Below, one piece after another: positions 34,828 through 60,855 of a stretch of 64,000 nucleotides of DNA; the first letter of the stretch is position 1; each line of letters opens with the position of its first letter. Below the pieces are notes generated by a model. It saw only the letters and a program-made list of their open reading frames with translations. It ran no database searches and was not told the DNA's origin. Both the position numbers and the translations under genes were made by a program. The stretch comes from Capitulum mitella (taxonomy: Eukaryota; Arthropoda; Thecostraca; Pollicipedomorpha; Pollicipedidae), in NCBI GenBank assembly GCA_030062745.1, contig CP099843.1, forward strand, positions 21,240,583 to 21,304,582. The letters run 5' to 3'.

Positions 34828-34980
34828 TCACACCACCGCCCCGTTGGCACCTGTCAGGCGGGCCTCGAGCGAAGGCCGACTCTGGCAAAGGCTGGTGCAC
34901 GAGTCGGGCCGGTACAGCCGGCCGTCGCCCGGCACCGCCAGCCACGCCTCCACAGCGTGGTACAGATACAGGAACTCCCG
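34828..34980 (-). CDS. Ptp99A-like: RPTP last exon, C-terminus and stop
   Basis: Acceptor cacctgttgacag, phase 0. It encodes REFLYLYHAVEAWLAV (family EQYQFVYKAMLSLV), then a 34-residue tail ending NGAVV and TGA. Vertebrate R5 receptors also have a short tail after D2. Open frames on the opposite strand here are shadows. No obvious polyadenylation signal was located just downstream. Confidence 0.9.
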   Translation of the reverse strand, partial: REFLYLYHAVEAWLAVPGDGRLYRPDSCTSLCQSRPSLEARLTGANGAVV

Positions 34981-39725: not shown

Positions 39726-42700
39726 TATATATATATCAAGTCCCGACCCCCGCCCGCATTGTGTGATTTCAAGCAAGAGGGAAGTCACATTGCATCTTTA
39801 TTGAAATATAACACCATTGCATCCATGCAATGCTATAAAAAATCGACCTGGTACCCGTAAAAATGCAAGTCCAATGAGTTGAAGCCGTAAAATTCCGTGC
39901 TTTTCTAATTTGCTACACTGGTCTCTGGAGCAATCGGCCTCTGCAATACCCCTAATCAAGATGACGTGGCGGAGCCCCTGGGTCCGAATCTGTCTGGCTG
40001 AGAGAAAAAGAGTTGTTGCTGTTAACCGTCAATCCCCCTTGAACTGTCGGCTTTGGAGGCTGTTTAGATCGAAACATCCGATCACGACTGTACCGCTGAA
40101 TGGTTGGTAATGTGACACAGCTTACCGGTTCAGGCATCAAAACTGGGTGGGAACGTTTTTTGACGCCCACGACCCCATCCCACGGAGCCATAAACCACGT
40201 GAACAAGAGGGAGGAGTGACGTCATCTGAAAGCACGGTATGCCTCGCCTATCTGGGGCAGCGTTGAAGCCACCAGACTCGTAATCGAATCAGAATCGATT
40301 CTGGTTCTCTGATTTTTTCGTGATCAGAATCGATTCCCTGTTAAAAACACGTGAATCAGTCAGAACCAGAATCACTTCTGGGCTGGGAATCAGAAACGAA
40401 TCGATTTCTAAAGTTGTTGGGAATTGATTCCCTGAATCGATTCCCAGATGCCGTTCCATTTGAATGCATACTTTGCTTACCTAATAAACGAGGTCATTTA
40501 TTGCCAATGTTTTTAAGAATAACAACGATGGCTATCAGCATCATGAGCAAAACTAAGTCAGAACAGAATTTGGAAATTCAGTTGTGACACAATGGAAAAT
40601 GAGATATTTCCTTTACTGTTTTAATAAATGCCTAGGTCATAGGTACCTATGGCTAGAGCCTGCCCCAATGCAGATTATCTTTGCAGTTTTCGATCCATAT
40701 CACTTAGAAAGGTGACAGGGACCCTATTCTAAGTATCAGCTTCCAAACAACATGTCTGATATGGTTTTTCAGTCTGGTGTCAGAAAACCACAGAAGATAG
40801 GCATCCTATTACCCATTTGTGGCTTCGCATAGAACTGAAATGTGAATCACGGTAGTCCAACGGTTATAAACGTAGTTAAAAATGGTCTTTGGATCAGGAT
40901 CGAATCAATTCCCCGTTTTTCAGTATGAATCAGGAAAAGAATCAGCATCGAGTGTTTGGGCTTCGAACCAGAATCGAATCGATTTTCAATTTCGTGATTT
41001 GTTTGCATGTCTGGTTGTCACGTCGATGTACGGCAATAATTGTATCTAACTGCTGCAATTTTAGGCACTCCAGTACATTTCCAGTCATATGCAAGATTAT
41101 AGAGAGGCTAATCTGCAACACGTTGTCTAACTATATTGAACATGTCACTTCTTCAGCACTGATCCACATGGTCTTCCGGAAAATCACTCCACCCGCACGG
41201 TGCCTGCGTGACTGTGCTTTGCGTCATATATACCCCTCGCTATTCCAATTACGCTGGATATTGTTCGCCACAAGGGAAATCGAATTAGGACCATTCGTCA
41301 TCGCATCTGACTTATCTTGTCGCTGCATAACGTGTACATCTGGTCTCATCGAGCTTGAATAATCTACAACACGTGTCAATCGAAAAATAATCTATATGTT
41401 GTGGACTCTCCACATGCTGTTCGATAATCAAATCGTACACATCACGTAATTAACCGAACTCGGTTCGGAATGAACCGCGACCATTTTCTTGTCACGTGAC
41501 CGGTCAGCAAAAAGTGGCCGGCTAGCTCCTGCTGTCTTAAGGGTTCGGAGCTTACTGCCCTATGGTTTTAACACATGCCCATCAATATACAACGAAAACT
41601 ATTCGGACAGACAAATTGCAACCGTGTTGGGTTGCTGTTGTCAAAAGGAACTGGATATTTCCTACACTTATCGAGGATCGAGCAGCTTAAAGTGCATGAT
41701 TGTGCAGCAATCCGTGTAGACTGTAAAACTTCGCTATGATTCGGTAACGTCTTTACGTATTCAAACGATCTCGCGTTTTAAGTGACTGAGGAGGAAGAGG
41801 AACTTCCGTCCGAAGCCGGCATGCCCTGTCCGGAAACGACTGACGCGAGCTGAAGCCCCAGCGTCCCGCCGGGTCGGCACGAGCTCCGAGCTCTGGGAAC
41901 GTCGAGACGTCAGGCTTCGGCCGGAGGAGTGTATTTCTGGGAGCACCTCACATTCCAGGTGCCGGCCGCCTGACACGGACAGCTGGACATACAGTCTGAC
42001 AGTTCACAGATCACGGCGCCGTGCCGGGGCAGCCATCAGGATGGTCTGCTAATGGCTGTCTTGAAACAACAGCGAGCATGTATGATAACCGTCTCGATGA
42101 ATGAATGAATGATATTTCGCAGTCGCATCAATAGCTTTCCATTATTTACAGAGGGATGGCCATCTTCTCATTACATTGGGCACCGCGCGTAGAATCATCG
42201 TCATAAATGGTCTAAGAATGCCAGTTTCATTCATGGCCACGAGATGTCTGAGGGAATACAAGCAGTGTCACGCCCCAGTAAAGGCCGTGCGACGCGCTGG
42301 CTTTTGTTAGGAGCAGACCATATGTTCCGACTTTCTGGACACTCGGTTTATGCTCGCGCCTCTGTTTAAATTGCATTATTCCCCGAAAACGGGACGTGCC
42401 AGTATTAAAGCAATCTGCTTGCAGTCTTAAAAATCGATGCAGTGAGATAAGGTGGGTATCTGAATTCCTATTGCATGACTGGTTTCCCATGCTGCTGTCG
42501 CGCTCCGCCATGTGTATGAGTAACAGACTGTAGTCGCACCACGGCCAGATTTACCTGGAAGCCAAGAGGCGTTGATATAGTCGGCCCCCTCGATGGGCGC
42601 GCTGCACTGCAGTCGGACACGGTACGTTTCCATGGGGATAAAGCCGAGGCTGCGATTTTTGGCCTCGTTACACGGCTTTGCAGCCGACACCACCGTGTAC

Positions 42701-42930
42701 TGGCGGGCCTCCAGCGCTATGACGTGCTGAAATACCAGGGAAAGTACATAACATGCAATGACAGCGACAGCGTCCATCCGACAGTGTAACAACTCAGCAG
42801 AAACAGGCAAAGGAATTTTGGCACGCTCAAGCAAATATATACATTACGATGACAGAGTCGATACTAAAGTTAACATTTCAGTTTCGCGTAAAGGAAAACA
42901 GAGAAAGAGAAAAAGAGGGAGGAGGGATGG

Positions 42931-43004
<74 letters not shown>

Positions 43005-46000
43005 GATTCCTGAGACGGCGGCTGTCACCTTGTACTGTTTCTCAGCGGCCGGATACGGGAAGCTGTCTCTGTAGCCGCCCTGCAGCTGCTCTATGTAGTG
43101 CCGTACTCCGTCCCTGAAGACCAGCGTCTCCCCGGCTGTGACCCGCTCCAGCAGACAGTCATGCAGGAACGCATACTCCTCCACTGTCCTCAGTAGGTAC
43201 GGACACTGGCCTGTGGGGAGAGGACAGTCATGCAGGAAGTCGGTCACCTCCATTGTCCTTAGCAGATACGGACACTGGCCTGTGCGGAGAGCACAGTCAT
43301 GCAGGAAGGCGTACTCCTCCACTGTCCTGAGCAGGTGCAGACACTGGCCTGCGGGGAGAGGACAGTCATGCAGGAAGGCGGTCACCTCCACTGTCCTGAG
43401 CAGGTGCAGACACTGGCCTGCGGGGAGAGGACAGTCATGCAGGAAGGCGGTCACCTCCACTGTCCTGAGCAGGTGCAGACACTGGCCTGCGGGGAGAGGA
43501 CAGTCATGCAGGAAGGCGGTCACCTCCACTGTCCTTAGCAGGTACGGACACTGGCCAGTGGCAAGAGGACAGTCATGCAGGAAGGCGTACTCCTCCACTG
43601 TCCTCAGCAAGTACGGACACTGGCTTATGGGGAGGGAACAGCTGTGCATTTCTTGTCCGTTTTATCTTTCTAGCCATCAGGAAGACTCTCCAAAATGTTT
43701 CGATGCCTGACCCGGCACCGCCTGGCGTGTTTTTGTACCTGCGACCGCCTGGGGGTGCCAATGGGGCACCCCTTGTTATTTCAGGATCTCACCGCGTCGG
43801 ATCTGAACCTGTCTGCCACCAGTCGATGGCCTGAGCCCTGCGGTTCAGAAAGTACTATGCAAGCCCTGGTCACGTCACTGATGACGTCATAGCCCATGTA
43901 AAACACATAACACGACATTGGAAAACTGGCATCGGTTTGTACATGATATCGTCAGCAATAATGGTCTTACAGCCTTCAACTGGGCATCAAACGAAAAGTT
44001 AACAATATTCTGCATCAGAGGCATGCCAAAATGTTAAAAAATGTCGGGTCACGGTCAACCTAGGCCAGGTGAAATACTGGTCTTGCTTGACATGCCAAAT
44101 ATCGCTAATAAATATACGTATATTTATTAGCGATCTCAGCCGTTTCGGCCCACGTGGCAAAAAGAACGGGAGTGAAATCTTCTGATGATCGGTTCTGCAT
44201 TACCTGCTTTTCATCCAGTCAACGTCAGTCTAGGTCAGGTCGGATAACGTTACATTACTCTTTGACAAAGAGCGATATTTACTTCCTGGGATTCTTAACT
44301 AATCAGATCTACTCTGTCTGCTCTTTATTGGGTCCAGGTCAAGCCAGGTCACGACAGATAGTCATTTTTTATTTCCTAAGGGCAATAATTGCTCTCTGCT
44401 GCTACTGGACGATCTTCGACAACAATGTTGTATTTCATTTCGTTTTGGCATCTACCTATGACGTGACCTGACATGGCCTCACGTTGCATTTAGTGAACCT
44501 TGCTAAGAGCCGGATATAGATTTGCTTGTCTGGCTCGAATGATGGAGAAGGTTGGCAGCAACCACTTCATCACCCACAATGCAAATCAGTCCAATTGTCA
44601 TCATGCATGTGACCTAGAATGGCCTCTAATGTTGACGTGTCACGGTTGCATATACTTTTGGAGCGTCCTATGCAAAATTAAAGAAATCGTGAATAATATT
44701 CGCAAATGTTAAAAAAGAAGCATGTTCGCGCCACCGCCCAAACCGGCGAAAACATCCAGGTTCATTTATAACGTCATATTTCCACGCCCGGACCTAGTGT
44801 GGACATGTTTTGGATGTAAGTAAAAATGTAAAATTGATTGATGAATGGGTGTTAAAAATTATGTGGGGCTGCCTTTAACGGTTCAGAATTTATTCAAGAA
44901 AAACCGAGGCGTGCCCTATTTGACACACCCCAAGCGGTTACGCGTCAAAACAACCTGGCAACCGAAGACAGAACAAGTCCGATGCCTCCGTGCTTCCATA
45001 AATGCCCCGTACTTCGTGCACTGCTTGCTCACACCTTCTTTCGCACACTTCGCAAACCTGCAGTGATTATTCAAACGGTGAAACCTGCGGTGATTATCAA
45101 CATTCACCAGCAATTTTGCGTCTAAATTCAACAATAGAGAATTTTGTGCTCCTAATCAATCGTACTACGCCATTCTGGAGTATTCTCGAGAAACCCTGCA
45201 TGGTCTTCACATTTAACCCTATTCCCGGAGGGCTAGACGATATGGCCGATTCCCGGCAGTGGGCGGATTCACAACCCCCCACAGTGAGATCTCGAGAACT
45301 GCACATTCGATTTCATCGCAACAAACGGCGATTGATTTGCGATGATGAAAACTACATTTTTATAAAAAGGAGTATTCAAAATCTTCAGAAAGGTGGATTC
45401 AGGGGGCAAGAAATCGAAATGGGAGATGTTTTCGGACTCTGCTGTTTATGGACCGATTTTGATTAAACTGACATAAATCGAGAGCTTGCCAATGGGATCT
45501 TTACCATTGGTCCATAAGTTTGAAGTCTTGAGAAAATCCATTGGCGTTCACAGGGTTTCGAAAATGGGAGGATTCTTTTTCTCAAAAACTGAGTTAACGA
45601 AAAAGTTCAAAACTCTCTTTAGCTTTTATTAGTCATGTTATGCCAAAGAAGCACAAATCGTATTACACTGTTTGTATAATGTTACCGCAGACAGTGCCAG
45701 GGACATGAAAAAGGGGAAATGTCATGGTCACATGCTCATCTGCTACGACCTTTGACCTTAAATGACCTCCAGTGACCTTAGAGTCACATGGAATGATCTT
45801 AAGTGTTTTATATTGTTTGAAAAAGTTTTCATTCATTTGAATCTATTCCATTTCTAAAATTCCAATTTTCGGCTGTCGTGATAAAGGGCACGCGCACTGA
45901 CATTTTAGGTCATAGACCCATTTAGCTCCATGACCCGACTTGATATCGACCTGAGACTTGGTACACAAGTAGAGGGCGCCTTTCTACGTCATATATGTAT

Positions 46001-49000
46001 TCCGAGTTTGCCATTTGAAAACAAAAGCGCTAAAATTATTACCATAAAACCAAATTTTGACTTTTGACCTTGACCTGACCTTGTAAAGTGATCTCAGATT
46101 AACAAAACAGGTATCTCTATGCTTTCCTAACTATTTGCCCATGCACCCATAAGAAAATTTCTATCTTAAAAAGCGATTTTTTCAGCCGTTTTCCTCTCAC
46201 CTTCAACAACGCCAAAAATTGCCTAAGGTGCCTCCACAAGACGTTACCAGGGTCCGCCCCCGAGGAAAATGGAAGTGCGAAATTTTGGTACAATACGTAG
46301 AAAAAATAGGTAGAAAAGGTGACCAAGTTTCGTGAAGGTGCGTCAAAACCCTGGTATTGGGAAACAAAAAACCCGAGGGGGGATTCTGCCCCTGTCAGGA
46401 ATAGGGTTAAAATGCGCTAACGCTTAAAAAATGGGGTCAGTCAAATATCTTACAATCCAAACATTTAAATAAATATCAGCCAATCCTTTGCAGCGCGACC
46501 AACTCCCAATGATGAGACATGAATTCAGTAGTCACAAGGTCAAACAAGGTATGCTATGACTTCAGGGCCATTTATGAAATGGAACCACATCGAGAGATTT
46601 CAGTAATATTTCTAAGTATCCATCGCTCCCAAAGGGTCTATAAGTTGTTATCATAATGGAAAGAATGTTTTCCGAGGTCACTGGTCATGCGCAGACATGT
46701 CAACAATCAGTCGAAACCATAATGATTTATGCAAAGATTGTAAGAACATCAAACCTGTGCAACAGAAATGAGAGTGCTATAAAATCGAACTGCGCCATGA
46801 ATGGTGAATCGATTTCAAAATTAGTCCACTTGTGTAAAGAATTCATTTTTAGGATGAAGCTTAAACTATTACCGACCCATAATGTGTTGCCAGTAGGAGA
46901 AAACTCCGAGTTCTCCTTTGTACTTGAGCTGGGACAGGAGGGTGACCAGTCCGACGTACATACCGGCAGAACAGTAGGATGTGCTGAAAAGGAAGAACAG
47001 ACCAGCCGTGCTATTAGAAGTAAAGGCAAAAATAGCCTTTGGACCACAGAAAAACATAAATCTATCAAACGACATCAAAATGCAAAATTGGGTTGCAAAT
47101 GTGTTCCCAGGTACCTTGACAAATCAAAACCAAAATCAGTACGCAGGTTCGTAGGTCACTGGTACCAGATATGTAAATGATTCAATTGTTTGCAGCTGCA
47201 CAAAAATACGTGGGTGAAATGACACTGATTTTATATATGGCTCAGGTCATGTCTAAGAGAAACGATAAAACAAGTATTCAGCTGGTGAGCACGCTCTTTT
47301 TTCTCCCGCATTTTGCATTTTCGTCACGGAAGAGGAACGGGGCTGCTCTGGAACACATCCTCACCTGCGTTTGATCAAGCCTGAATCTGAAGAACATTCG
47401 CCACATGTCAACAAAGTTAAATTAGCAAAAACCCTCCGTCCCTACACCATTAATAGCATGCAAATATGTTTCAGGATCAAACATGTATAGTTTCATGTGT
47501 CACTGCCCCCACCTCTATATCTGGCTCTGGCCAGGCCCACCTGTATCCCCATAAGCCGGCGTTAATGCCGCGTTAACGAGCGGCCGTCGGCAAATGACGC
47601 CGTGGGGCCTGCGAATGCCGCCGGCCGGCCAGTAAAGCGCGACTGGGGCCCCTGGGACCGGCCCAGGCCCCGACCTCTGAACCACCAGCACCGCTCTGCA
47701 CCGGCTCCGCTCAAACAGCCGCCGGCCGCGGGCGGCCGGTCCTGGCTCCTGGTGAGGCGCGGACGCAGCGGCACGGGTTGACGTCAACGAAAAGGCCCAG
47801 GCACGCCCTCCCACGTATGCCAGGAGGTTCGCCTACACCTGGCAGCGCGATGGCCTCGTGTTGCTGCAGCTCCTTTTGGGTCCGCGGAAGTGCCGGAACA
47901 TGGGGCCCCAACCCCAGCGCAGAGACAGAATGATCAAATATTACAGACCATCTTGTGACAATGCAACACTGGTAACGAAACTGGCACGGTCACTGGCAAC
48001 TCACTGGATCTATATACGAGACAAACACTGCACAGAAAGATGGCGCATAATACGAAAGCGATAAAAAAGGCAACAAGGAATAAAACGCACGAAACAATTA
48101 CCAACCAAACAGGGGACATGATCAAATGTGGCATGCAAAAATAAACAGTTATGCTTGGCGTGAACAGTTTAAAACAAAGAGTACAACATAAACATTAAGG
48201 TTCAGTCGCAGCACATAGAACTATCGCATAGTATTGATATTTTGCGACATTTTGCAAATACATATCCAACAATGGCAGTCCCCTAAGGAGACTGCATTTC
48301 AAACTTGTTGAGAACTATGCCCACAATGAGAGAAACGTCTTTAGAGCATGCCCTAAACATTTGCCACCAGCATAAAACGCAGGAAACGTCACGATGCAAA
48401 CAAGCTTTCCCATCATACAAAAGCTAAGTGACCATGATGATGATGATGATGATGAATGATGATCCGACCACGACGCGCTGTGATCACCGGCACGGCCGCC
48501 GCTGCATACCCAGATATGAAGAGTACGGGATGTCTTGGTGCGGGCCCGTCCTGCTGAGTGCGTTGCACAAAATCCAACAGCGGCAGCAGGTCTTCCGGAA
48601 GACCATACTCGGGCCAGAGCGCGTACTGGAAGAAACTGACGCTCCGCTCCTTCTTGCTGATGTCCGACTTATTCTGGCGGAGGTAAACCAGTAACTGGTA
48701 TTCCAAATTTCTGGCAGTTTCCTGGTTGACTTCGGTGGCATTTCTTTGACTGGTGTGAAAAGATTATGCTGCAGACCGTTACCGTTCCTAATTACGATCC
48801 AGCGCATACCAAACATCACACTAAAGGACAAAGAACACGAAGCTCAGATGCTATTGCCTGCATGCTAATGCCTAAAATTGTTTTTGAATGTGTCCAAAAA
48901 TGCTCCAAACCAGATTAATTACTTCCATGTAACAAAGCCACCATGACCTGCAAACGTCCATACTTATGAACAAAACGTCGATCAAGCAAACCTGAACTGT

Positions 49001-52000
49001 CAACTCCACTATCTTTGCGTCACTGTATTGAAACGACAGTCTTAACGGAAGTTCCCTGGCGCAAGCAATTTACACCCACTGGCGCAAGCAATTTCAGGTC
49101 ACTTGCCATCACGGATTACACGACCGCCACGATTACATGAATTATCGAACGCGTTCGCTGGCATTCATTCGATTTGTCACGCGTGTCGCTGGGTTCGGAA
49201 ACAAACGCTGCCGGTGTCTTAAAACGTGCAGAAACAGGATTCCCACAGCGACAAACCTTCGTTTGTCCGTCTCTGTCACAGAATCGTGGACAATGGGAGC
49301 TTTTTTATCGGGGCAAAAAAACCCTTTCAAGTCATTTCTTCCCATGCCATGCTATCCAGCTAACATTTAATTTCCGAAGTTTTAGGAGGTCGCTGTCCCT
49401 GCACCCACACAGGCTTTCGCCGTTCATGTACTCATTACACCCAAGAATTTCTGCCGCGAGGTTTCGTTGAAGGCGAGCACTGCCTCGGACGTCGGCCACC
49501 TCCAGGCCCGCCAAATCCCCCCGGGGCATTGCGGCCCGTTCTGGTCCGATATTTGCCGCTGCAGCTGAAATAAAATCGATGGCCGGATTCAATGAGCGGG
49601 GTGGCCGTAAGCCAGCACGCCGGGAAATGGAGAAAACTTGGTCCGTTATGAAGGCAAGGCGCACAGCGGCGTGCAGCGCTACCTTCAGTTTGGAGATGAC
49701 CAGCTTTCTGACGCAGCAGGCGGCCAGAGCCAACTCCTGACGGTGTTCGATCCGCAGACCACCAGAGGGCAGCACGGCATCCCTCTCCGGCCAGAACCGG
49801 TCGGATTTCTGCGGCAGAACGGCAGCTGCGGTCACAGACTGGTCAGCCAGGGGACGGGAATCCGGCGAGCAGCGGTACCAGGGCCAGGTGGCGCCTGTGC
49901 GCTGCGAGGCTCCAAATATCTGCGTTCATCGGGGTCATAAGTGCGTCGCACGTTTTCACTTTCAGCGAATTGGGTAGGTTAAAAATACGTGATGAGGATG
50001 CAGCTGGCAGTAGAATTTCTCGCACCCAGTTTCCCTGGAAATTTCAGAAGCACGAAAACGCGACTCTAAGCAGCCTGTGTACCAGTCGAAGTCGCTCTCC
50101 CCCACACCAGGCCGGGGATCAGCCGGAGGTATTGGCACCGCCGGCAGTCTGGGCCCAGTATTTGCGGCCGGATCTGGGGCCGACTTTATAGGTACCCGCT
50201 GCTCCCTGAAGGGATCGCCGAGAATTATTCAAATATCGACGGCGGCTTTCATTTGCATCCAAGATAATCGACAGCTCTCGCGCGCCAGTAGCCCTCTGGA
50301 GCTATGTGAAGCCACACCCGAAGCAAGAGGGGCTGAAGTATTCCCCAGGAAGGAAGGATTTTCGGGATCTCGATGATGCAGTTCGAAAATCTATGTGGTT
50401 TACGTTCAGGCCGGCTGAACCTCATTGCCCCCAAAAGGAAATCCACGTGTCCGAGCGAATGAGAATGTTTCACTTCAGTCGCGTTATTAAGGTGCAAAGG
50501 GCACACCCACATTTGAGCAAATGTCACCACTAAGCCGTGGAACAAAGCGACCGCCGCGGCCAAAGGCACACATTGATTTCACCGACAAGTATTAACACGA
50601 CAAAAAATAGTTTAGTTTGATAGTTCACGGAAAGTCGTTTTCTCAAAAGACAATGTTGTATTCTGGCAACCAAAAACGAAGGACTCGAAAAGTACAGACT
50701 GTTTGGAAAAGGGATATGGGTGTAGTTTTTATCACTTGTGGTCGCACAAGGCGTGTTCATGTGAAAAACAAGCAAAATATTTCAAAAGGTCACTCTTGGT
50801 AGGTAAGGTTCTTATCAAAGTGCTTCCACGGCACGTATTACTACAGACAGGCATCCCAAGAACAAATCCCAAACAAATACGTTTAGTTGTGGGCCTGAAC
50901 ACTCTGTAAAAAACGTGACTTAGCCCTAGGCCAAGTGTCAACAGGTCAAATTGCCTACTTATGATCGCAAAAATATTCAATGGGCGTATTTGAACTTTAA
51001 AACCAACGAACCAGGTACATCAGTGCAAGGACGAACGTAAAGAGAGCAGAAAACTGACTGGCCCTAAGATCGCTGATCAAGAAACTTTCCCAAAAATTCG
51101 AATAGCAGAAATGTTGCATGTATCGTGTTCTGCCAATGAGGCAAGCTTTATACTAATCGATGCATTTCACAAAATGATACTTTTATGTTTCTTTTCATTT
51201 GCGATTTTGGTCCACTTTAACCTATTCCAAATCAGTAATCTGCGTTGACCCTTAGTTTTTAAACATTCACAAAAGATGGAAAGGACTGTCTACAAGGTAC
51301 CCAGGCTTCGTGGCTCCGTGCCTATTTACTTTTTCTTGTATTTCCAGAATGCCGGAGGTGTTTTCATGAAGCTCAGTCCAGTGAGGGTTAAAACAATCCA
51401 AGTTGATCCGGAAGGAAACGACGCTGGAATCCGGGCCGGGTGGCACCACGCTTCAGTTAGTTACACTTATGCCTTACCACCCGTTAACTCCACAACCACA
51501 GCAGGCTGGTAACAGACTTTAATCGACTGGTAGCGAGGCCCACCCACTGACTCACTGAAAGCTATCCACCAATATCGTGCCATAGCCCATTGAGGTGCCG
51601 ATGATCAAACCACTGACAGAGCCACAGCTCAGTCGGTCTGTTCCCGTGTTCATGTCCCAAAAAGGATGAGAGGAGGTTAGAGGAGGTTGGATAAGGCGCC
51701 GAATTCGCGCCCAGGGGAACGTTTCGGATGAGTTTGGGTGGGGTACCAGCTGTCTGTTTTGGTATGACATGACGAATCAAGTTCAGATTTAAAGAAGCAA
51801 GCGAATGAATTGTGCGCCACTATTGTCAACCGTCGAACCTCCTCCAAACTCCTACCAAAACCTAGGTTCCATTCCGGAGGAGTTTGAAAGAGTTCCGCGG
51901 CGATCTGGGATAAGTTAAGAGGGGCTTGACGGAGGTTAAAGAAGCCACAGGAATGATCAGATGAGTTTTGATGAGCTTCGAGGAGGTCTGATGTCCAACA

Positions 52001-55000
52001 GGAACAGACCAATTTGGGGCGCAGATCAGACCCAATGATACCGGTCCGCGATAGCCACGCGGTACTGGTTCCCTGGCGACAGTCCACTGGCACCGGGCAC
52101 TCACCCACTGATATTTAACCCGTCCCCGACTGGGCGGGGCAGTTGACTGCTCCCCTGAGGATTTTCTGGGATTGCGAGAGAACCAACAAACACAGAGTCA
52201 CGGAACTTTGTGTACCTTTTGCTCCATCAATTTTACATCTCGTGTCAAAATTTTGACATCAGGTCAGGTCAGGTCAGGTGTCTGACCTAGGTCAGGTCAA
52301 ACGGACCTATGTCCAAAAAAGTTTAGCGCCCCCTAACTTCTTCGCAAACCAGGATATCTCAAAAATACTTTCAGGGATTAGTGAACGTGATAGATGCAAC
52401 AAATCTGCTATCTCAGATTTTTCGGAATTTTCCGGGTCATTGACCTAAGGTCATGCCCAATTTTAAGACACGTCGCCGTTTTTTCGCAAATTGACGGAAT
52501 ATTTCATAACATTTTTAGTGTGGAGTCAAGCAGACATCTAGTTACCGTCATTGGGCAAAGTATCAGTGACTTCCATCCATTGACCTGAGGTCAGGTTACC
52601 AATAACTGTAGTGAACCAAAATGTACCACCGTCAAAATCGACGATGAATTACTCAGAATGGCTAGAAAATGGCAGAACTAGCTTGCACAGACGTAAGTAA
52701 TACCAGGAACCTAAAAAAGTTTGAAAAAAGTAGCATATTTTGGAAATAAACAGGCTCTCGCCAACAAAGCTCGGCCAATTTTGTAGATTCGAAACTAATG
52801 AATTTTTCCAAAATTTAAGCATGAAAAACCATCACAGGAACCATAAAGATCAATAAAATTTACATAGATCGTCTTTTTCGCGAAAATAAAGGAATGCTAA
52901 AATTGGTTCCCGTCAATTTGGTACCGCATACGGTAGCGGCACACACCGACAGCTGGCGGGAGAATTGCCGTGTCTTTAACTCAACGTTTCGGCGTATATA
53001 TTGAAGAAATTTGGGGAAATTAGACGTGTATCGGCATCCGCTGACCTTTACTTGTGAGCTGGTGCCTTTACCTATGCGTTTTTAGTCACAGCCCTTGATA
53101 TTCAGGCCATTTCTCGGTTTCATGCAGTCGGCTATGAGAAAGCATATATAGAGCGTAAATTAGCTTACATATTACGTAAAACTAAAAATGAGACCAGTTT
53201 CGAGCTCTACTCGTCACAAACTTTCCAACGGTGTGCTTGTTTTTATCGTGCGACCAACTGTTCATGAGTTAGAGGGGGAGGCAGCCAACTGCCCCCCCCC
53301 CCAGTCGCCCGTGTTCGAAACGGACCGACGGTCGTGCGCGGGTTAACCCTATTCCCGGAGGGCTACGCAGTATGGCCGATTGCCAGCAGGGGGTGGGCGG
53401 ATTCGGCCCCCCCCCCCCGAGATCTCGAGAACTACACATCCGATTTCACCGCAACAAAGGGCAATCGATTTCCCATGACGCAAACTACACTTAAAGTTCT
53501 TAAAATTTTGAAAGGCGTGGATACAGCGGGGGGGGGGGCAGAAATATCAAAATAAGGGACAATTCTGGACTTGTTATAACTCCGTTGTTTATGGACCAAT
53601 TTCGATGAAATTGTCATGAATCGAGAGATTATGGGTAGAACTTTTACCATTTGTACACACATTTGAAATTTTGAAAAGAAATCATGGGCTTTCACAGGGT
53701 TTCGAAAATAGAAGGACTAGTTTTTCAAAAACTGCATGAACAAAAAAAGTAAAAGCACTTTTTGGGCTTATGCTAGTCATGGTATGCTAAACAAGTGCAA
53801 ATCTCATTACAAAGTTTCTAAAATGTTAGCATAGGCGGTGCCAGAGACATGAAAAAAGGGGAACTGTCGTGGTCATTTTCTTCAGACCAACTTGTAACCT
53901 TCGACCTTAAATGACCTTCAGTGACCTTGGGGTCACTTGGAATGATCTCGTCTGCAATTAGTATTATCTGTAAACGTTTTCGATCAGTTGAATTTACTCT
54001 GGTTCAAAAATTCTATTTTACGGTTATTGTGATACAGGGTACGCGCACTGACATTTTAGGCCCTAGCTCCGTGACCCCACCTGATATCAAACTGAAACTT
54101 GGTACACAAGTAGACGACATCCTTCGACGTCATATAATTCCGGATTTGGCATTTTGAAAAATGGCACCGAAATTATTACAATAAACCAAATTTTGACCTT
54201 TGACCTTGACCTGACCTTGTAAGATGACGTCAGACGAACGAAATTGTATTTCTATGTTGCCCAACTATTAAGGTATACGTCCGTATAAAGTTTTAAGTTC
54301 GGTCTTAAAAACGCTATTTTTGGCAGTCATTTTTTTTAGTCTCAATACGGCCAAAAATGACCTGAGATGCCTCCCAATAACGTTGCCTGGCTCCGCCCCC
54401 GAGCAGAATAGAATTTTGAAATTTTGTGACAATGCGTAGAAAAAATAGCTAGGAAAAGTCACCAAGTTTCGTAAAGCTGCGTCAAAAAGCCTGAAATTGG
54501 CAAGCAGAAAATCCGAGGGGGGGGGCGAATTCAGCCCCCCCCCTGCCGGGGTCAGGGTTAACCCCAACCCACTGATACCCAGGTGCCTATGCTCGGCCAA
54601 TGCCACGCCCCCCGAACTTCAGCTCGACAGTGCACCCACCTCGACCGAGCCGACCAGGACGACAGAGGTGACGTTCTGCTCCCAGAGCAGGCGCCACAGA
54701 GCGTCGCGGGAGGCCGCCCCCGGCAGGCAGGTGACGAGGAAGGCCCGCGCCTTCTGGTAGCCGTCCACGTAATAGGCGGCCGGCACGGGTCCGCCGCGGT
54801 ACCGCCGCGAACTGATGGCCGCTCTTGTTCGCTGGTCTGCAACGGATTGGCGCACAAGTGGCCGGCGTATGTCAACCGGAAAACACATTTCACGAATTGC
54901 ACTTTGTGATCTTCTCTTGCGATGTTTTAACCATTTAAACTATGCAATCGTTGATGGTATTTTGTTCGTCATTTATGTGATGCCACCGGCGCAGATACCT

Positions 55001-58000
55001 TGGAACGTTTTGAAAATGACAAAATACAGATGCTAAAGGCGCTCAAGCAGCCCCTCCGACCTCTCTCCCGACTGGGCTACGGGACACAACAAAAAACTCA
55101 CATGTCGTCGTCGACACATTAGTGCCAGCAGCCAGCTCGCTCTTCGGTTTGGAGCCGCTAGTTCCCAGGTCGTCCGCCAGGGGCGCGGCCATCTGCAGCA
55201 TCTCCCACTCCCGCCGGAAGCCGTCGTCGTCCAGTGCGTGCTGCTGACGCACGTGCTGCGCGAACACATGCGACGGCACGGCCTCGTGTGAGGGCGCCGG
55301 CCAGCCGGAGAGGACGGTGCTCGTGGCCAGCAGCTTGTCGCCCGGCCGAGGCTGGTACCGCCGCAGGCGCCGTCTGCGGAATAGCGCCGCACAAGAGCTT
55401 CAGCAGCCTGTCAGTCAGGCGTCGAGCCAGGTCATGGCAGAAGACATAACACTCTTGCAGGCACGGCATTACTGTAAACTATCACGGTGCTCATTGGAGG
55501 CAAGGTAGTGAGCCAGCCGTGCATTCGTGAAGCTGAATGCTCAACAACGTGAACCGGCATCTTCAATGAGCTGGGCAAGAGCATAGCGCATTGCAATTAA
55601 GAACATCCACCGCAATTTCGCACAAGGCCAAGAAGAAGTACTGTTTTCAAACACCGCTTTCCAGCTGAAATATCGGGCCGCTGCTAATAGTGAATGTTCC
55701 GACTGTTCGACATATCTATCATGATATACGTAATACATAAGCTGACTGCTTGGTGGCTTTCCCTCAGAAAAGAAAGGACAGGTGCATGCTGTCACCGTGC
55801 ACAGTCTACCATGGATTTCTCACCAGGATGGCAAAGTTGTTAACCTATGGACAATCTTCGTTAGAAGTTCGATCCCGCCGGCAGGGCTTGCTGTCCCCCC
55901 CCCCCCTCTCGGAAGGTTAGTTTCTCCAAAACCAACATTCCGATTTTCCTGCAATTAGCTTAAACGAATGTGTGGGATCAAGTTCACTTCTACGAATTTA
56001 CGCATCTCCCAGTGGCGGTGCCAGTAACCTAGAATGGGGTTTCTTGTCTTCTCATTTGCACCGAGTCCAAACGTGTCTAAAATGGTTCTTGTGTTCTGCT
56101 TGTGTATGCCTGAGGCTTGCCAGTATGACAATGTGTCCATACACATTATCATGGCGGTGCATAGTAGCGGTACATATTACAACATACATCAACGGCGTAG
56201 CCGGAATCCCCGCATGGCAGGCAACGGTAGTTCTCTTCCTGTCAGTGTGTTTTGACAGATCGAACTCGAAATAGTTACTATCACACAGCATGTATTTCCC
56301 TCAAAATCCCATTTGCCAATGGCAAAGTCAGGAGTCTGAAAGGGATAGTAAAATGATTTGACTTAAACATCACCATGCTTAGTTTTCGTGGTATGAACAT
56401 TGTCACGGTGCTACGCGCATCAACTGAGACTGATGTTAGAGGGCATCAACTGAGATTTCTCTGGGGCAGCCAAAGGTAATATTCACTTTAGCGTGTGTTA
56501 AAAAGCATATACTACAGGCACATGTCTCAGAACTGCACATATTCGTACCTATAATCACATTCGGCGGACGTTAGTTGCAATGCGTGGTCGCCTGAGGTCT
56601 ATGGACTGCCGTTACATTACTGGTCCTCTGGATCCACCCCTGGCTTTCGTAATGTCTTTGTGTGTGAAAATGAATGACAATGACGAATAAAACGCAAAAA
56701 TCGCTGAAATATCCGTCCACGATATGGCGAAATACATTAGCTATTTCCCCAAAATTAATGATCAGAGTATCGCATTTTCCTTCCTGGATCCGCCATTTTT
56801 GTCATAACATTAAAACATTAGAAAGCATAAAAAATGTGTTGCATAACAAAACATTAGAAATGTGATGAAAGGCATGAAATGAACAGGTACATTGCAAAAC
56901 ATGGCTGCTTTTTCATCCAACATTCCACAGGGCATATGTAGGAGCAGCATGCAAAGTCGCGAAAGATGGCAATACAGACTTCCCGAAAACCTATGCTGGA
57001 GGCCGTCTACGATAAACCTTGCAAACCTAAATTGTTTAGTAAATGTTAAGTTAAGACAAGCTACCAAGTTCCATTGTTATCCCTCACTGTTCGCAAATAG
57101 AAAATGATTACACTTCTGGGCCTACGCAGTCCGGAACAGGGCTAAAGAGTACGAAAAGGGAGCAATACAAAGAATCTTGAACCATTTTATTGTGATCTGT
57201 AATATCGGACGGCAGACAATGCAAACGGTGTTTGTAACGATTGCTGGCCGAGCCATGGATGCAGAGGATGACTTTTTGTCATCGCAGCCTCGAAATGTTA
57301 TACCTGGTGGTAATAAAGCAATGTCAAAACGCTACGCGAAGAGAACGCCTTGCTGAGACCCAAGTGTATTCCAAAATCAGAAAGCGATCAGCTGAGGCGG
57401 GCGAAAGAACTGTTTGGGTGACGCCGTGTTGAACAATTCCTAGATCGTGGCTAACAGTGCACCATGGGAATGCAGACCAGGCAAATACCATTTCAATCAC
57501 GCTTTTAGTCGCCTGTAATTTATTTTTTCAGACATTTACGGCCCGGAGCAGTCGCTGTCTTTTCATCCAAACCTTGCACGAAATCCATTCGACATGCCAT
57601 CAAGGCCGGAAACAGCGTTTCAAAAGTTTTAGGGAGTGTGGTCATTCTGAGCTGGGAAGTTTGCTGCTACTTAATCCCGCTCTCCGACCACTCAATCACT
57701 CCAGAACCAACCGCCACCAGATAGAAACTTACCTCGTTAATCCCTTTTTTCTATTTCTACAAAAGTATTTCTGCGAATTCGCTTAGTTTTCGGACGCTTA
57801 AGACATTGAGCATCACCAAAGCGTTGCGTTCATCTCGGACAAACAAGATATTGCCTGCAGTCGCGAATTCCTACAGCAGCACTTTGCAAGATCGGATTCT
57901 GTCTCGTGACGGACATGTCCGTCGTGTTCGTTGATCTCTTCCACGAAGTCATTCAACATTAAAGTTGCAGCTGGGGGTTAGACCAGATTTCCAACAGCTC

Positions 58001-60855
58001 TAAAATGAAGTCCAGGTCGATGGTATTCGCTGTAAACTAGCTGTCGTCCCATTTGATTTTCCAAACGCTCAGCCGTTTCTTCGGTGCAATGTGATTTAAT
58101 AGCCCGTTTTGTACCTCTCTGAACGAGTAATCGCCTCCTGTTATAGTGCGGAAATCATTCACACAATATGTTGCACTGCAAATGTAAAAAAGCAAAGCTA
58201 TGACGTGAGGGTCCGATTCCTCTTTACCAAATGAGCTCCTCCAGGTCCTCGAAGTTCACCTTCGATTATCCAGGTGAAACATCACTGTAGCCTATTTTGC
58301 TCAACGCGCTGTATTTAATCCTACGACCCACCGACCCCTCGACCCACCGACCCGGGGTCCGCCCCGCGCCGACCCGGCGATCCGGCGGCGGCCTGGGATG
58401 ATTTCGGCCGCGGGCCGGCCGGCGGACCGTTTGAAGCGGCCGTCGGCGCGGCCATCTTCGGCTCCGACAGGGTCCGTCGCTGCCGTCGGCCGTGTCCTGT
58501 CCGGCGACGGCCGCCGTAAAGCTGCGACGACGGCCGGCCGCGAATAAACGCCTCCCGGCCGCCGGCGACTCCAGACAGTCTTCCCGGCTGACCGGCACAG
58601 CCGACTCCAAACAGTGTTCCCGGCTGACCGGCACAGCCGACTCCAAACAGTGCTCCTCGCTGACCGGCAGAGCCGACGCCAAACAGTCCTCCCGCCTTTC
58701 CCGCCTCGCACAGCCGACTCTAAATAATCCCCGCTGCTCAGCAGGGCCCACTCGAAGCAATCCCTCCCGTCCAACTTACGGAGCTGGGTCCCAATAGTTC
58801 TTGCTGCAAAGTACAGCCGACTCCAAACAGTCCATTCTTCCCAGCAGAGCCAACTCCAAATAGGCTCTGTTGCCCCTCAGAAACGTCTCCAAACAGGAAA
58901 TGATCACCAGCGGGGCTGGGTACCTCCAGATGGGGCACAACGCCAAACAAAACCCATTTCAGCAGGATATAATGGACAATAGAGTAACAAATGGCCACAG
59001 TGAACACAATCAGAGCAACAAGGCCACTGAGCCGTACGATCTGCAACATGGGCTAACCACATCTAAGCAAAAACCTCTCATCATGTCTATATCCTTAGCA
59101 TTTCGATGCTTCTTTCAGCCGAAACATCATGTTAAGTGATGCAATAATGCTATGCCATCCAAGCAAACAATGAGTATACAAAACAATCTTTGGATTTCAG
59201 GTTTTCAGGGTGTCGGTTTGCTGATAACAGTTTAGTAGAGTGACCAAGTGCATTCAAAACAAGACAGGTACAGACAAGGTAATATTATAAGTTGGCCGGG
59301 ATATAAAGGTATGCACTAAATATGCAGTTTCCTCCACGTTATGTGAAGAACACGTTCCTTTCTACCACTGGGTAACTAAAATTTTCCACTGTTATCTCCG
59401 ATGCACGGCATAGTTTTTGGCCTTAGCCTGGACGATCCGCTTCTCGCAGAGATCTCAGCCGGTGATTCGGCCTGGCCCGAGCCTCCGGCGACGTTTACGG
59501 TGGCGTATTTTTCTGGCTGCCGCTCGCCGGACCCGGAAATGGATGGCCAGCTGGCGACCGATGACAGCGCGCCTCCTAAGTGGAACGGTCGCCTCGATAG
59601 GACAGAGAGGGTGGGCAACTCGAGACGGACGGTCAACTCGATAGGACAGAGGGTGGGCAACTCGAGACGGACGGTCAACTCGATAGGACAGAGGGTGGGC
59701 AGCTCGAGACGGACAGTCGCCTCGACAGAGTGGGCAGCTCGACACTTGGTCTGATTCATAACCCGGACAAAACGAGATGAGGTTGTTGCTGACGTGTCGG
59801 AGGCACTCGTCTCCTCGTGTCGACCATTAAGGTTTAGTGCAGCTTTGATGTTACATAATTTCGGTTTCGATATTAATCAAGTTGTTGATGAAATCTCGCA
59901 CTGCTGCATATTGTGTCTGAAATCAGTTAGTGGGAAACATGCAACAAATTCGAGAACAAACTTAATTATGGAAATGGCACATAAAGCCACATGGACGTTC
60001 GACAGGTTCTTTGGCACCCTTTCATCAAATACAGTAAATTAAATTTTAAGTTGCAACCTCCCCTGGCTACGTTTCAACTTGTTTTCAAAGCCAGTAACTG
60101 GGGACGGAAAGTGATGCCAAGGAGCGCCGAGTTTTAATAGTTGAATGAAACAGGTATGAACACAAAAATACGCAAAAGCGGTTAAAGGAACAAAAACGGC
60201 AGCACAGCGGAATGCGAATGAGCTCGAGCGGCAACGTTTTCTGCAAAACAGCTTTACCCCAGCATCAGGCTAAAATTGGAATTCAAAGTCCACCTCTGCG
60301 TGATATTGCTCACCCGTGAGCACCTCGGATTTCTGAGCAGGCGCCAGGCCCTCGCGAATTCATCAAGCCATTATTCGTTGGCGCAGGACCCTGAATAGTT
60401 GGCGGTCGGCCATAAATTACGCAAACTGCACGCGCAGATGGGCGGCGTGATGGGGACGGCCAGCAGCGGCAGATAAACAGCTGAACCCGAGCCCGATTAG
60501 GTATTAACGCCGGCGTATGCGTGTGAGTGATTTGGCAGGCTGCTGTTACGCCGCCTTCGCTTTGTCTGCGACGTTCGGCCTTCTCGTGATGTCACGGGTT
60601 AATCCATTTTAAAGCCAAAAGCGCAAATGAACGTAGCACGCCGACGCAAGATGTGCTTTGTTCGCTTAGAAGACCAACTCCGATGGACACAGAGACTGCG
60701 TCTGACCTCCAGATGATGGCGACGATGACGAAGAAGAGGACCAGCAGGCTGCCGACGCAGATACCCGTGACCTCGGCGCCGGCCAGAGTCGTCCGAGGCC
60801 GGTGCTTCCACGTGCTGTACAGCTGGATCTCCTCACAGCCACGCTCGATCCTCAC
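34828..60855 (-). CDS. Ptp99A-like: Receptor protein tyrosine phosphatase, R5/Ptp99A type; transmembrane and cytoplasmic part (exon span)
   Basis: R5 receptors are cell-surface proteins with an ectodomain, one membrane segment and tandem cytoplasmic phosphatase domains; D1 normally dephosphorylates phosphotyrosine. Thirteen exons on the - strand (60855-60707, 55373-55102, 54836-54640, 49808-49683, 48673-48510, 46983-46877, 43210-43029, 42726-42555, 37393-37275, 36874-36731, 36334-36195, 35349-35214, 34980-34828) join in frame for 2,061 nt and end in TGA. Order: ectodomain stub, membrane helix, RRRLRRY stop-transfer, R5-like juxtamembrane, D1 (about residues 120-380), D2 (about 395-660), short tail. 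D1 lacks the catalytic motifs; D2 has Asp for the catalytic Cys, a known R5 feature. All junctions obey GT-AG. Ectodomain exons must lie at higher coordinates and were not found before 64 kb. Confidence 0.94.
35214..35349 (-). CDS. Ptp99A-like: RPTP D2 exon after the pseudo P-loop
   Basis: Acceptor gtgctggcag completes an Arg codon, giving VVDRYGGTEGASFC across the junction. It continues LRQLQHEASFDIFYYAKLY and RRPGIWKTM, matching R5 D2 ALTTLSQQLE and VFQVAKMINLMRPGVF. The donor is gtaggt, phase 0. Confidence 0.94.
35400..35770 (+). repeat. Dispersed repeat E, copy 2
   Basis: Partner of 31330-31780; it begins with tgtcgatttcagtaaa about 50 bp from the RPTP exon that ends at 35349. Its tail carries three short repeats of attgggtgggccc. 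Confidence 0.72.
36195..36334 (-). CDS. Ptp99A-like: RPTP D2 exon with WPE and start of the pseudo P-loop
   Basis: Acceptor tgtttgtttcag, donor gtcagt. It encodes RIVYLPLWPEECSIDSV and ends TPLLVVDR. The Asp of VVD stands where an active phosphatase has its catalytic Cys, as known for R5 D2 domains (HDEYG in RPTP-zeta). Confidence 0.93.
36731..36874 (-). CDS. Ptp99A-like: RPTP D2 middle exon
   Basis: Forty-eight codons, phase 0 on both sides, acceptor tatccttggcag and donor gtagat. It encodes DFEVFWPLEEEELHGQNFVV and SWIIRSFLMEPTE, the D2 counterpart of EFVYWPSREE and IIIHDFILEAT. Confidence 0.92.
37275..37393 (-). CDS. Ptp99A-like: RPTP D2 exon with ILTQHPLP
   Basis: Acceptor ctgcgtgcag and donor gtgggt. 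It encodes GYRDMQEYILTQHPLPSTVV and DFWQMVWDNRVSTV. These match the R5 D2 hallmarks FIITQHPLP and DFWRMIWDHN. Confidence 0.95.
38334..38375. repeat. (TA)n microsatellite
   Basis: About 21 TA units within an RPTP intron. Confidence 0.98.
39611..39722 (+). repeat. (CACACG)n then (CA)n microsatellite
   Basis: Seven or so CACACG hexamers followed by about 31 CA units, in the RPTP intron between 42555 and 37393. Confidence 0.98.
42555..42726 (-). CDS. Ptp99A-like: RPTP D2 start exon
   Basis: A 172-nt exon, acceptor cctggtatttcag, donor gtaaat. It encodes HVIALEARQYTVVSAAKPCN, EAKNRSLGFIP and EGADYINASWLPG. The match to R5 D2 (CNKEKNRN, GTDYINASYIMGY) is clear, and D2 is more conserved than D1. 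Confidence 0.94.
42935..43001 (+). repeat. (GA)n microsatellite beside an RPTP donor site
   Basis: About 33 GA units, that is a (CT)n tract on the coding strand starting roughly 27 nt after the donor of the exon at 43029-43210. Confidence 0.98.
43029..43210 (-). CDS. Ptp99A-like: RPTP end of D1, with tandemly repeated acceptor end
   Basis: A 182-nt exon with acceptor ctccccacag and donor gtgaca. It encodes QCPYLLRTVEEYAFLHDCLL, then RHYIEQLQ and EKQYK. The family has YLVQTEEQYIFIHDALLE and LEKQFK. The Q-loop Gln is Arg (LRT for VQT). The acceptor and first 54 nt of this exon form unit 1 of a 69-bp tandem array running to 43638, and the open frame continues through that array. A (GA)n tract begins only about 27 nt past the donor. 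Confidence 0.9.
43156..43638 (-). repeat. Seven-unit 69-bp tandem array built from an exon's 5' end and its acceptor
   Basis: Units start (plus strand) at 43156, 43225, 43294, 43363, 43432, 43501 and 43570. On the - strand each holds a pyrimidine tract, an AG and codons like LLRTVEEYAFLHDC. The length is a multiple of three and no stop interrupts the array, so it stays in frame with the RPTP exon at 43029-43210. Usable AGs in the same phase lie at 43211, 43280, 43349, 43418 and 43487. The unit at 43501 has lost its AG, and the last has a shifted one. Two unit types alternate, EEYAF and EVTAF. Confidence 0.95.
45213..46410 (+). mobile_element. Family B TTAA element, copy 2
   Basis: Bounded by ttaaccctattcccgg at the left and ggaatagggttaa at the right, a perfect short inverted repeat including the TTAA target. 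It is 1,198 bp with no gene and lies in an RPTP intron. Confidence 0.85.
46877..46983 (-). CDS. Ptp99A-like: RPTP D1 exon at the catalytic P-loop, CX5R motif absent
   Basis: A 107-nt exon, acceptor ccttttcag and donor gtcggt. It encodes TSYCSAGMYVGLVTLLSQLK, then GELGVFSYWQHIM. After the splice the segment reads PVLFISGTSYCSAGMYV where the family has PVLVHCSAGVGRTGTYI. Neither an ungapped alignment nor one anchored on CSAG gives a Cys followed by five residues and Arg. A strong internal donor (gtatgt) occurs just after CSAG, at 46963. Confidence 0.88.
47515..47930 (-). other. GC-rich open stretch in an RPTP intron
   Basis: Very rich in CpG and open on the - strand, but it carries no phosphatase motif and would break the matched exon pair 48510/46983 if included. 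It could be a CpG island, an alternative exon or an inserted fragment. Confidence 0.4.
48510..48673 (-). CDS. Ptp99A-like: RPTP D1 exon with WPE loop
   Basis: A 164-nt exon, acceptor ttacctccgccag and donor gtatgc. It encodes VSFFQYALWPEYGLPEDLLP, then HPVLFISG at the exon end. The family has QYHYTQWPDMGVPEYALP. The general-acid Asp of the WPD loop is Glu here. The residues leading to the catalytic loop read PVLFI instead of PVLVH. Confidence 0.93.
49683..49808 (-). CDS. Ptp99A-like: RPTP D1 exon with DRFWPE
   Basis: Forty-two codons, phase 0 on both sides, acceptor cgttctgccgcag and donor gtagcg. It encodes KSDRFWPERDAVLPSGGLRI and ends at KLVISKLK, the same boundary as ..RNTK in vertebrate R5 receptors. 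It replaces the family's KCDQYWP with KSDRFWP. Confidence 0.92.
50600..51400 (+). repeat. Dispersed repeat C, copy 2 (approximate limits)
   Basis: Partner of 15640-16600, diverged. It lies in the RPTP intron between 54640 and 49808. Confidence 0.55.
52115..53346 (-). mobile_element. TTAA-flanked inverted-repeat element, family A, copy 3
   Basis: Inverted relative to copies 1 and 2, between TTAA at 52115-52118 and 53343-53346. Its right TTAA is also the left TTAA of the adjoining family B element. It lies in the RPTP intron between 54640 and 49808. Confidence 0.8.
53343..54561 (+). mobile_element. Family B TTAA element, copy 3
   Basis: Left end ttaaccctattcccgg, right end gtcagggttaa. It matches 45213-46410 along its length and directly abuts family A copy 3. 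It ends about 80 bp from an RPTP exon. Confidence 0.82.
54640..54836 (-). CDS. Ptp99A-like: RPTP D1 exon with YVDGYQKARA
   Basis: Acceptor caatccgttgcag in phase 1 and donor gtgggt in phase 0. It encodes VPAAYYVDGYQKARAFLVT, then LWRLLWEQNVTSVVLVG. The family patterns are YINANYVDGY.KAKAYIATQGPL and FWRMIWEQ. The usual ATQGPL segment reads VTCLPG, and DYINA reads PVPAA. Confidence 0.92.
55102..55373 (-). CDS. Ptp99A-like: RPTP juxtamembrane and start of D1
   Basis: Begins with RRRLRRYQPRPGDKLL and continues with VPSHVFAQHVRQQHALDDDG and FRREWEMLQ. This parallels the R5 juxtamembrane of RPTP-zeta (IPVKQFVKHI, then GFSEDFEEVQ). At the position of the phosphotyrosine-loop motif KNRY it has KSEL, so the substrate-stacking Tyr is absent. 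The donor gtgagt leaves phase 1. Confidence 0.9.
58549..58860 (+). repeat. 36-bp GC-rich minisatellite
   Basis: Best units start at 58585, 58621 and 58657 (core accggcacagccgactccaa); decayed units with ccgactccaaacag continue to about 58860. It lies in the 5.3-kb RPTP intron after the membrane exon. Both strands are open through part of it, which the period (a multiple of three) explains. Confidence 0.88.
59599..59745 (+). repeat. 42-bp minisatellite
   Basis: Units with gtgggcaactcgagacggac start at 59611, 59653 and 59695, plus a shortened fourth. The period is a multiple of three, so frames stay open by chance. Confidence 0.9.
60707..60855 (-). CDS. Ptp99A-like: RPTP transmembrane exon
   Basis: Encodes a membrane-proximal outer stretch, then the hydrophobic helix GICVGSLLVLFFVIVAIIW. 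The acceptor is ctgtgttctag (phase 0) and the donor gtcaga (phase 2). Joined to the next exon it reads IIWRRRLRRY, a classic basic stop-transfer signal, which supports the long 5.3-kb intron between them. Confidence 0.88.

Follow-up and report, generated by a model that had tools for sequence, protein, structure and literature searches.

Gene structure and catalytic motifs

The stretch of DNA analysed here, called the window throughout, comprises 64,000 nucleotides of the genome of the barnacle Capitulum mitella (C5:21240583-21304582). Its minus strand carries the transmembrane (TM) and cytoplasmic part of a gene for a receptor protein tyrosine phosphatase (RPTP) with two phosphatase domains, D1 and D2, both predicted to be catalytically inactive. 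Thirteen exons with matching phases (60855-34828) join into a frame of 687 codons in the order TM helix, D1 and D2, of which the sole stop is the last codon; AG precedes all 13 exons (TM and a to l) and GT follows the first 12. The initial annotation had joined the 13 exons in frame to a stop, which these splice sites, phases and the single terminal stop bear out. The interval it had given, 46877-54836, corresponds exactly to the end of exon e and the start of exon b, but falls short of the gene, which runs down to its stop codon at 34828-34830 and has its ectodomain exons beyond the window, upstream of the TM exon. The membrane-proximal ectodomain contains FN3 (PF00041, 75.6 bits over joined pieces).

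In D1, KSEL stands in place of KNRY, WPE in place of WPD and LRT in place of VQT, and the P-loop reads ISGTSYCSAG without HCX5R, exactly as had been claimed when the motifs are read in the joined frame. Lost with them are the phosphotyrosine loop, the general acid, the catalytic Cys, the Arg and the Q-loop glutamine, and none of the marks of an active receptor phosphatase (an HCX5R P-loop, and WPD, KNRY and the Q-loop glutamine in D1) is present. The match of the Pfam profile PF00102 to D1 (97.7 bits) begins only at profile position 32 and thus misses the KNRY segment; its match to D2 (125.4 bits) begins at position 1. In D2 the catalytic Cys is replaced by Asp, VVDRYGG aligning with VHDEHGG of PTPRZ D2 and VHDEYGA of PTPRG D2. 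The set of catalytic residues is absent from both domains of the gene, and the proposal of a doubly inactive RPTP, with its D1 motifs lost and an inactive D2 of the R5 type, stands as a prediction from the sequence.

Paralogues in the genome and the history of the P-loop

Searching the genome itself (477,042,490 bases in 16 contigs) with D1 and D2 revealed three close paralogues with the same defects, C5_24M (C5, ~24.24 Mb), C4_11M (C4, ~11.75 Mb) and C4_13M (C4, ~13.68 Mb), and seven R5-like genes with an intact D1 (C4 at 4.14, 4.15, 15.11 and 17.52 Mb; C5 at 24.15, 24.46 and 24.48 Mb). We refer to the window gene and its three close paralogues as dead and to the seven others as intact, a term that, like active, describes their D1 motifs as predicted from sequence. 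WPD, HCSAGVGRTG and VQT occur in 7/7 intact and 0/4 dead genes, and KNRY was seen in the two intact paralogues whose exon was read. The suspicion that the gene is a diverged duplicate, should an active R5 paralogue exist, is thereby substantiated: seven paralogues with intact D1 motifs coexist with a clade of four dead ones. Both the TM and the FN3 exons were found at all four dead loci, and the membrane-proximal ectodomain and TM pieces match near five of the seven intact paralogues with 33-44% identity. Exon k was read in the window gene and C5_24M, and is known as a search hit in C4_11M and C4_13M. Three further genes, C1_35M, C10_7M and C1_21M, gave only weak matches and were taken for other phosphatase genes, outside all counts. 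The eleven R5 genes are distributed as six on C4 and five on C5, and these may be a duplicated chromosome pair. Excerpts of one report describe an ancient whole-genome duplication for barnacles (PMC11331182). The cuticle domain PF00379, a mark of arthropods, was matched by 150/150 scored candidates from this genome, a first look having given 627 candidates, and by 0/14 control genomes.

In the window gene the P-loop is interrupted by an intron (TCTGG/gtatgc ... ccttttcag/CACATCC, giving PVLFISG/TSYCSAGMYV). In all seven intact R5 paralogues a phase-2 intron splits the Ser codon of HC(S), and the intron of the four dead genes coincides with it in position and phase. A gap-free alignment of 124 residues, reaching from the WPD region to where D1 ends, covers the four dead, seven intact and four vertebrate sequences. 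This common intron, together with the gap-free alignment, implies that HCSAGVGRTG turned into ISGTSYCSAG at the same position, with CSAG now occupying the old GRTG position. Of the two histories first offered for the P-loop, ungapped replacement at the same length therefore stands, and a gain of five residues before Cys with loss of VGRTG after it is contradicted by the shared phase-2 intron. The counterparts of HCSAGVGRTG in C5_24M, C4_11M and C4_13M are VCGTQHCSAG, ISGSSHCSLG and ITGRSGGGAC; in the order window gene, C5_24M, C4_11M, C4_13M, the WPD motif has become WPE, WPA, WPE and WPE, and the Q-loop LRT, LRT, LTT and LSA. An extra intron just before the Q-loop is common to the four dead genes and found in 0/7 intact genes, which fits a single origin. 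The P-loop intron is probably older than R5, since C1_21M seems from its sequence to have one too (GPILVHC followed by a donor).

In exon e of C5_24M the string HCSAG is displaced downstream by five residues, and a motif scan would wrongly take it for a catalytic one; the P-loop is dead and resembles a live one only by a shift. For the window gene, we considered taking the downstream CSAG as splice-acceptor sequence with a later exon start, and rejected this, as the acceptor ccttttcag lies upstream and the exon has 107 bases in 4/4 dead genes. In C4_13M the first acceptor gives an exon e of 161 bases with an insertion; an acceptor 54 bases further on gives 107 bases in the same phase and was used instead.

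Subfamily and phylogeny

A search of PDB with the second half of D1 plus D2 placed PTPRZ (2.6e-80) and PTPRG (2.1e-78) at the top of 242 distinct sequences (E up to 0.001), and because these two ranked first the gene is filed under R5 by descent. The features of R5 membership are found in it: D1-D2 is nearest to PTPRZ and PTPRG, D2 has Asp, and FN3 is followed by one TM helix. A carbonic-anhydrase-like domain is a feature of vertebrate R5 members. PTPRZ and PTPRG, which share with the gene their domain order and the D2 Asp for Cys, differ from it in having an intact D1 of their own (HCSAGVGRTG, WPD, VQT). Descent within R2B, the subfamily of PTPRU, is not borne out, as PTPRU D1 scores 1.7e-24 against 8.3e-34 for PTPRG D1, both being single-domain chains. 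Ptp99A of Drosophila is an arthropod R5 receptor with an FN3 ectodomain, tandem phosphatase domains and an active D1. PTPRN and PTPRN2 (IA-2) are receptor phosphatases without activity, with a single phosphatase domain and another ectodomain, and PTPRN2 matched the gene more weakly in the PDB search (7.2e-20). In a tree built on 124 columns from the four dead, seven intact and four vertebrate rows, the four dead genes form one clade (100/100; 100% of 200 bootstrap trees).

Table 1. Exons of the gene and the tandem array that overlaps exon f. Positions refer to the window; lengths are compared among the four dead genes.
Feature	Position	Strand	Remarks
TM-helix exon (VTGICVGSLLVLFFVIVAIIWR)	60707..60855	-	phase 2 exit; 83, 64, 46% amino-acid identity to 3 paralogues
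Exon a: juxtamembrane and phosphotyrosine loop (formerly KNRY), now KPKSELAAG	55102..55373	-	
Exon b: D1, PAAYY in place of DYINAN, then VDGYQKARAF..LWRLLWEQN	54640..54836	-	197 bases in 4/4
Exon c: D1, KSDRFWPERD..CVRKLVISKLK	49683..49808	-	126 bases here, 129 in the other 3
Exon d: D1, WPE for WPD; ends PVLFISG at phase-2 intron within P-loop	48510..48673	-	164 bases in 3/4, 167 in C4_13M
Exon e: D1, second half of P-loop, TSYCSAGMYV for AGVGRTGTYI	46877..46983	-	107 bases in 4/4
Exon f: D1, Q-loop LRT for VQT, end of D1	43029..43210	-	182 bases in 4/4
Exon g: start of D2 (AKNRS..RVRL..DYINASWLPG)	42555..42726	-	172 bases in 4/4
Exon h: D2	37275..37393	-	119 bases in 4/4
Exon i: D2 (VFWPLEEEE..)	36731..36874	-	144 bases in 4/4
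Exon j: D2, WPD-loop region (LPLWPEECS)	36195..36334	-	140 bases in 4/4
Exon k: D2, P-loop region VVDRYGGTEGASFC	35214..35349	-	Asp for Cys as in PTPRZ D2
Exon l: end of D2, C-terminus, stop codon	34828..34980	-	
69-base tandem array	43154..43641	.	7.1 copies, 89% matches; overlaps exon f by 57 bases, remainder intronic

Constraint on the dead genes

Across the four dead genes the nine cytoplasmic exons b-j have the same length or lie 3 bases apart, a shared structure beyond what chance would give, and the joined exons a-j are free of stops in 4/4 copies. The ratio of nonsynonymous to synonymous divergence (dN/dS) is 0.27-0.34 for D1 (exons b-f) in 6/6 pairs, at dS of 1.00-1.35, and 0.08-0.37 for D2 (exons g-j), values that are rough because most pairs have a dS close to or above 1. 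Under a neutral simulation of the 259-codon D1 (Jukes-Cantor model without indels), 21, 3 and 0 of 400 copies were stop-free at 0.1, 0.2 and 0.3 changes per site. With open frames, kept exon lengths and a constrained D1, the gene is not an ordinary decayed pseudogene, as had been argued from its joined frame, and D1 constraint makes decay unlikely. We are nearly certain that the gene is both catalytically dead and maintained by selection.

The two domains have diverged differently. Compared with PTPRZ, D2 is 41-47% identical in the dead four and 43 and 47% in two intact genes, the D2 comparison covering 2/7 of the latter, and D1 is 34-39% identical in the dead four and 60% in two intact genes. 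The two intact genes resemble each other more in D1 (83%) than in D2 (66%); when dead genes are compared with intact ones the order is reversed, with 30-41% for D1 and 46-55% for D2. Since D2 is equally far from PTPRZ in both groups, the fast change lay in D1. The D2 of the window gene is 63-72% identical to those of the other three dead copies in the 95 residues compared.

An FN3 exon region outside the window (C5:21310697-21310918) and its counterpart at C5_24M (C5:24264970-24265185) agree in 198/206 bases, counted by eye on the alignment. As D1 exons b-f stand at a dS of 1.00, this near-identity looks, from the sequences, like a recent gene conversion between loci 3 Mb apart. The window gene and C5_24M are similar in exon f as well (88.5%).

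Non-catalytic function and its alternatives

Our data suggest, with a probability that we put at about 0.6, that the gene encodes an intact R5 receptor whose dead D1 has been kept under selection and which works non-catalytically as a scaffold or competitor. The pseudophosphatase state of D1 would have arisen once, in the ancestor of the four present paralogues, and selection would have kept it since. The protein would reach the membrane and act there non-catalytically: it would offer a scaffold for docking, compete with active R5 receptors by binding ligand or dimerising, or do both. The binding or decoy receptor of the initial annotation is a plausible form of this. With the phosphotyrosine pocket gone (both KNRY and the P-loop), D1 is unlikely to trap phosphotyrosine; the more likely routes would be competition by the ectodomain or docking at D2 and the remainder of D1.

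Excerpts of a 2020 report describe PTPRU as having two pseudophosphatase domains and as unique among RPTPs in that both are such, with WPE and an altered, disordered phosphotyrosine loop (GSRQ for KNRY) and no activity shown; it binds substrates of its active kin and was proposed to be a competing scaffold (PMC7320164). As far as those excerpts go, PTPRU resembles the gene studied here in its two pseudophosphatase domains, WPE for WPD and altered phosphotyrosine loop, but differs in belonging to subfamily R2B and in keeping the catalytic Cys, whereas here Cys, Arg and the Q-loop glutamine are lost and there are four copies. Because PTPRU is already known as a doubly inactive RPTP, the present gene is a further case rather than the first of its type; it belongs to another subfamily, has lost more of the catalytic residues and exists in four copies. 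In the titles and abstract openings surveyed in a part of the PMC literature, no R5 receptor with a dead D1 is named, and no PMC paper was found with both barnacle and receptor-type tyrosine-protein phosphatase as terms. A wider proposal, to which we give even chances, is that an arthropod lineage (perhaps barnacles, after whole-genome duplication) built a four-member, doubly dead R5 subfamily beside seven intact members, that this arose apart from vertebrate PTPRU, dismantled the phosphotyrosine pocket and put D1 to a new, selected non-catalytic use, and that receptor signalling is set by how active and dead receptors are balanced at the membrane. Four dead and seven intact paralogues with common introns in one genome are a natural experiment, in which the D1 surfaces kept after the loss of catalysis can be read directly.

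Several alternatives were weighed. By analogy with PTPRU, which according to the same excerpts combines WPE and an altered KNRY loop with binding of PTPRK substrates (PMC7320164), D1 might bind and shield the substrates of active kin; PTPRU, however, keeps its catalytic Cys, whereas both Cys and Arg are gone here, so that a shared binding surface would need to be somewhere other than the pocket, and we regard this account as rather unlikely. The pocket being lost more fully than in PTPRU, docking through D2 or the outer D1 and competition through a related ectodomain are favoured. It is also improbable that the ectodomain alone matters, as a ligand decoy, with the cytoplasmic part kept for folding only. 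The FN3 and TM exons at the four dead genes, and the relation of their ectodomain to that of the intact paralogues, would agree with such a decoy, but the D2 dN/dS and its conservation among the four copies are more than a passive anchor seems to need.

Very doubtful is the idea that the chemistry of D1 has changed rather than died. HC or YC occurs at the old VG position in 3/4 copies, C5_24M has a Cys at the catalytic position of VCGTQHCSAG and another five residues on, and D1 is under purifying selection; yet Arg, the WPD acid, KNRY and the Q-loop glutamine were lost together, and the four P-loops differ among themselves, as expected for a non-catalytic surface. Slow decay of four pseudogenes, which the missing catalytic motifs and a nearly unconstrained phosphotyrosine-loop exon in three pairs (dN/dS 0.95-1.09) might suggest, is hardly tenable given the kept exon lengths, the D1 dN/dS, the outcome of the neutral simulation and stop-free exons a-j in 4/4 copies at a D1 dS of 1.00-1.35. 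Least credible is an error of the gene model at the P-loop, with an unseen or mutually exclusive exon restoring HCX5R, an option left by splicing that is only predicted but opposed by three paralogues that share the exons and also lack HCX5R, by the loss of WPD, KNRY and the glutamine in other exons, and by the gene region itself (window 33919-55918), where a six-frame scan found two HCX5R strings, one per strand and neither in a phosphatase context, and tblastn queried with an intact paralogue's exons for KNRY, WPD and the P-loop (E <0.1) found only D1 exons b, d and f and D2 exon h.

Other results weigh against a selected, non-catalytic R5 receptor or soften the case for it. The splice sites and the joined protein are predicted from DNA alone. 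With D1 alone as query, two-domain PTPRS/LAR chains outrank PTPRG by summed score (best 3e-43 vs 7.7e-40), their sums being highest because each contributes two domains; PTPRG D1 leads the single-domain chains with this query (1.3e-28). A very long branch separates the dead four from the other 11 rows of the tree (per column, 1.26 changes on one side of the midpoint root and 0.97 on the other), the dead clade is not nested among the intact R5 genes of the genome, and the intact genes do not form one clade (29% of bootstrap trees). For 2/7 intact paralogues, only weak ectodomain matches lie nearby (E 0.007-0.03). The phosphotyrosine-loop exon (a, from EAVPSH on) is weakly constrained over the whole comparison (dN/dS 0.46-1.09). 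Finally, the comparison that speaks for selection, rough in its dN/dS values, is among four paralogues of one genome, and gene conversion between two copies may lower some of the distances.

Repetitive sequence at the locus

The unit of the 69-base array (23 codons) comprises the 3' splice site and the first codons of Q-loop exon f and is open in the frame of that exon. An AG acceptor in the same phase is present in five copies, among them the one used, so that splicing to other acceptors could insert repeats of 23 residues at the Q-loop. In C5_24M the copies of a related array lie in different frames. A dispersed repeat of ~1.2 kb occurs in the window at 53343-54540, 45213-46410 and 1-1188 and also in C5_24M, to which the first two copies are 73-79% and the third 85% identical. 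An (AG)n dinucleotide run of at least 100 bases lies at window positions 42900-43001, ~30 bases downstream of exon f.

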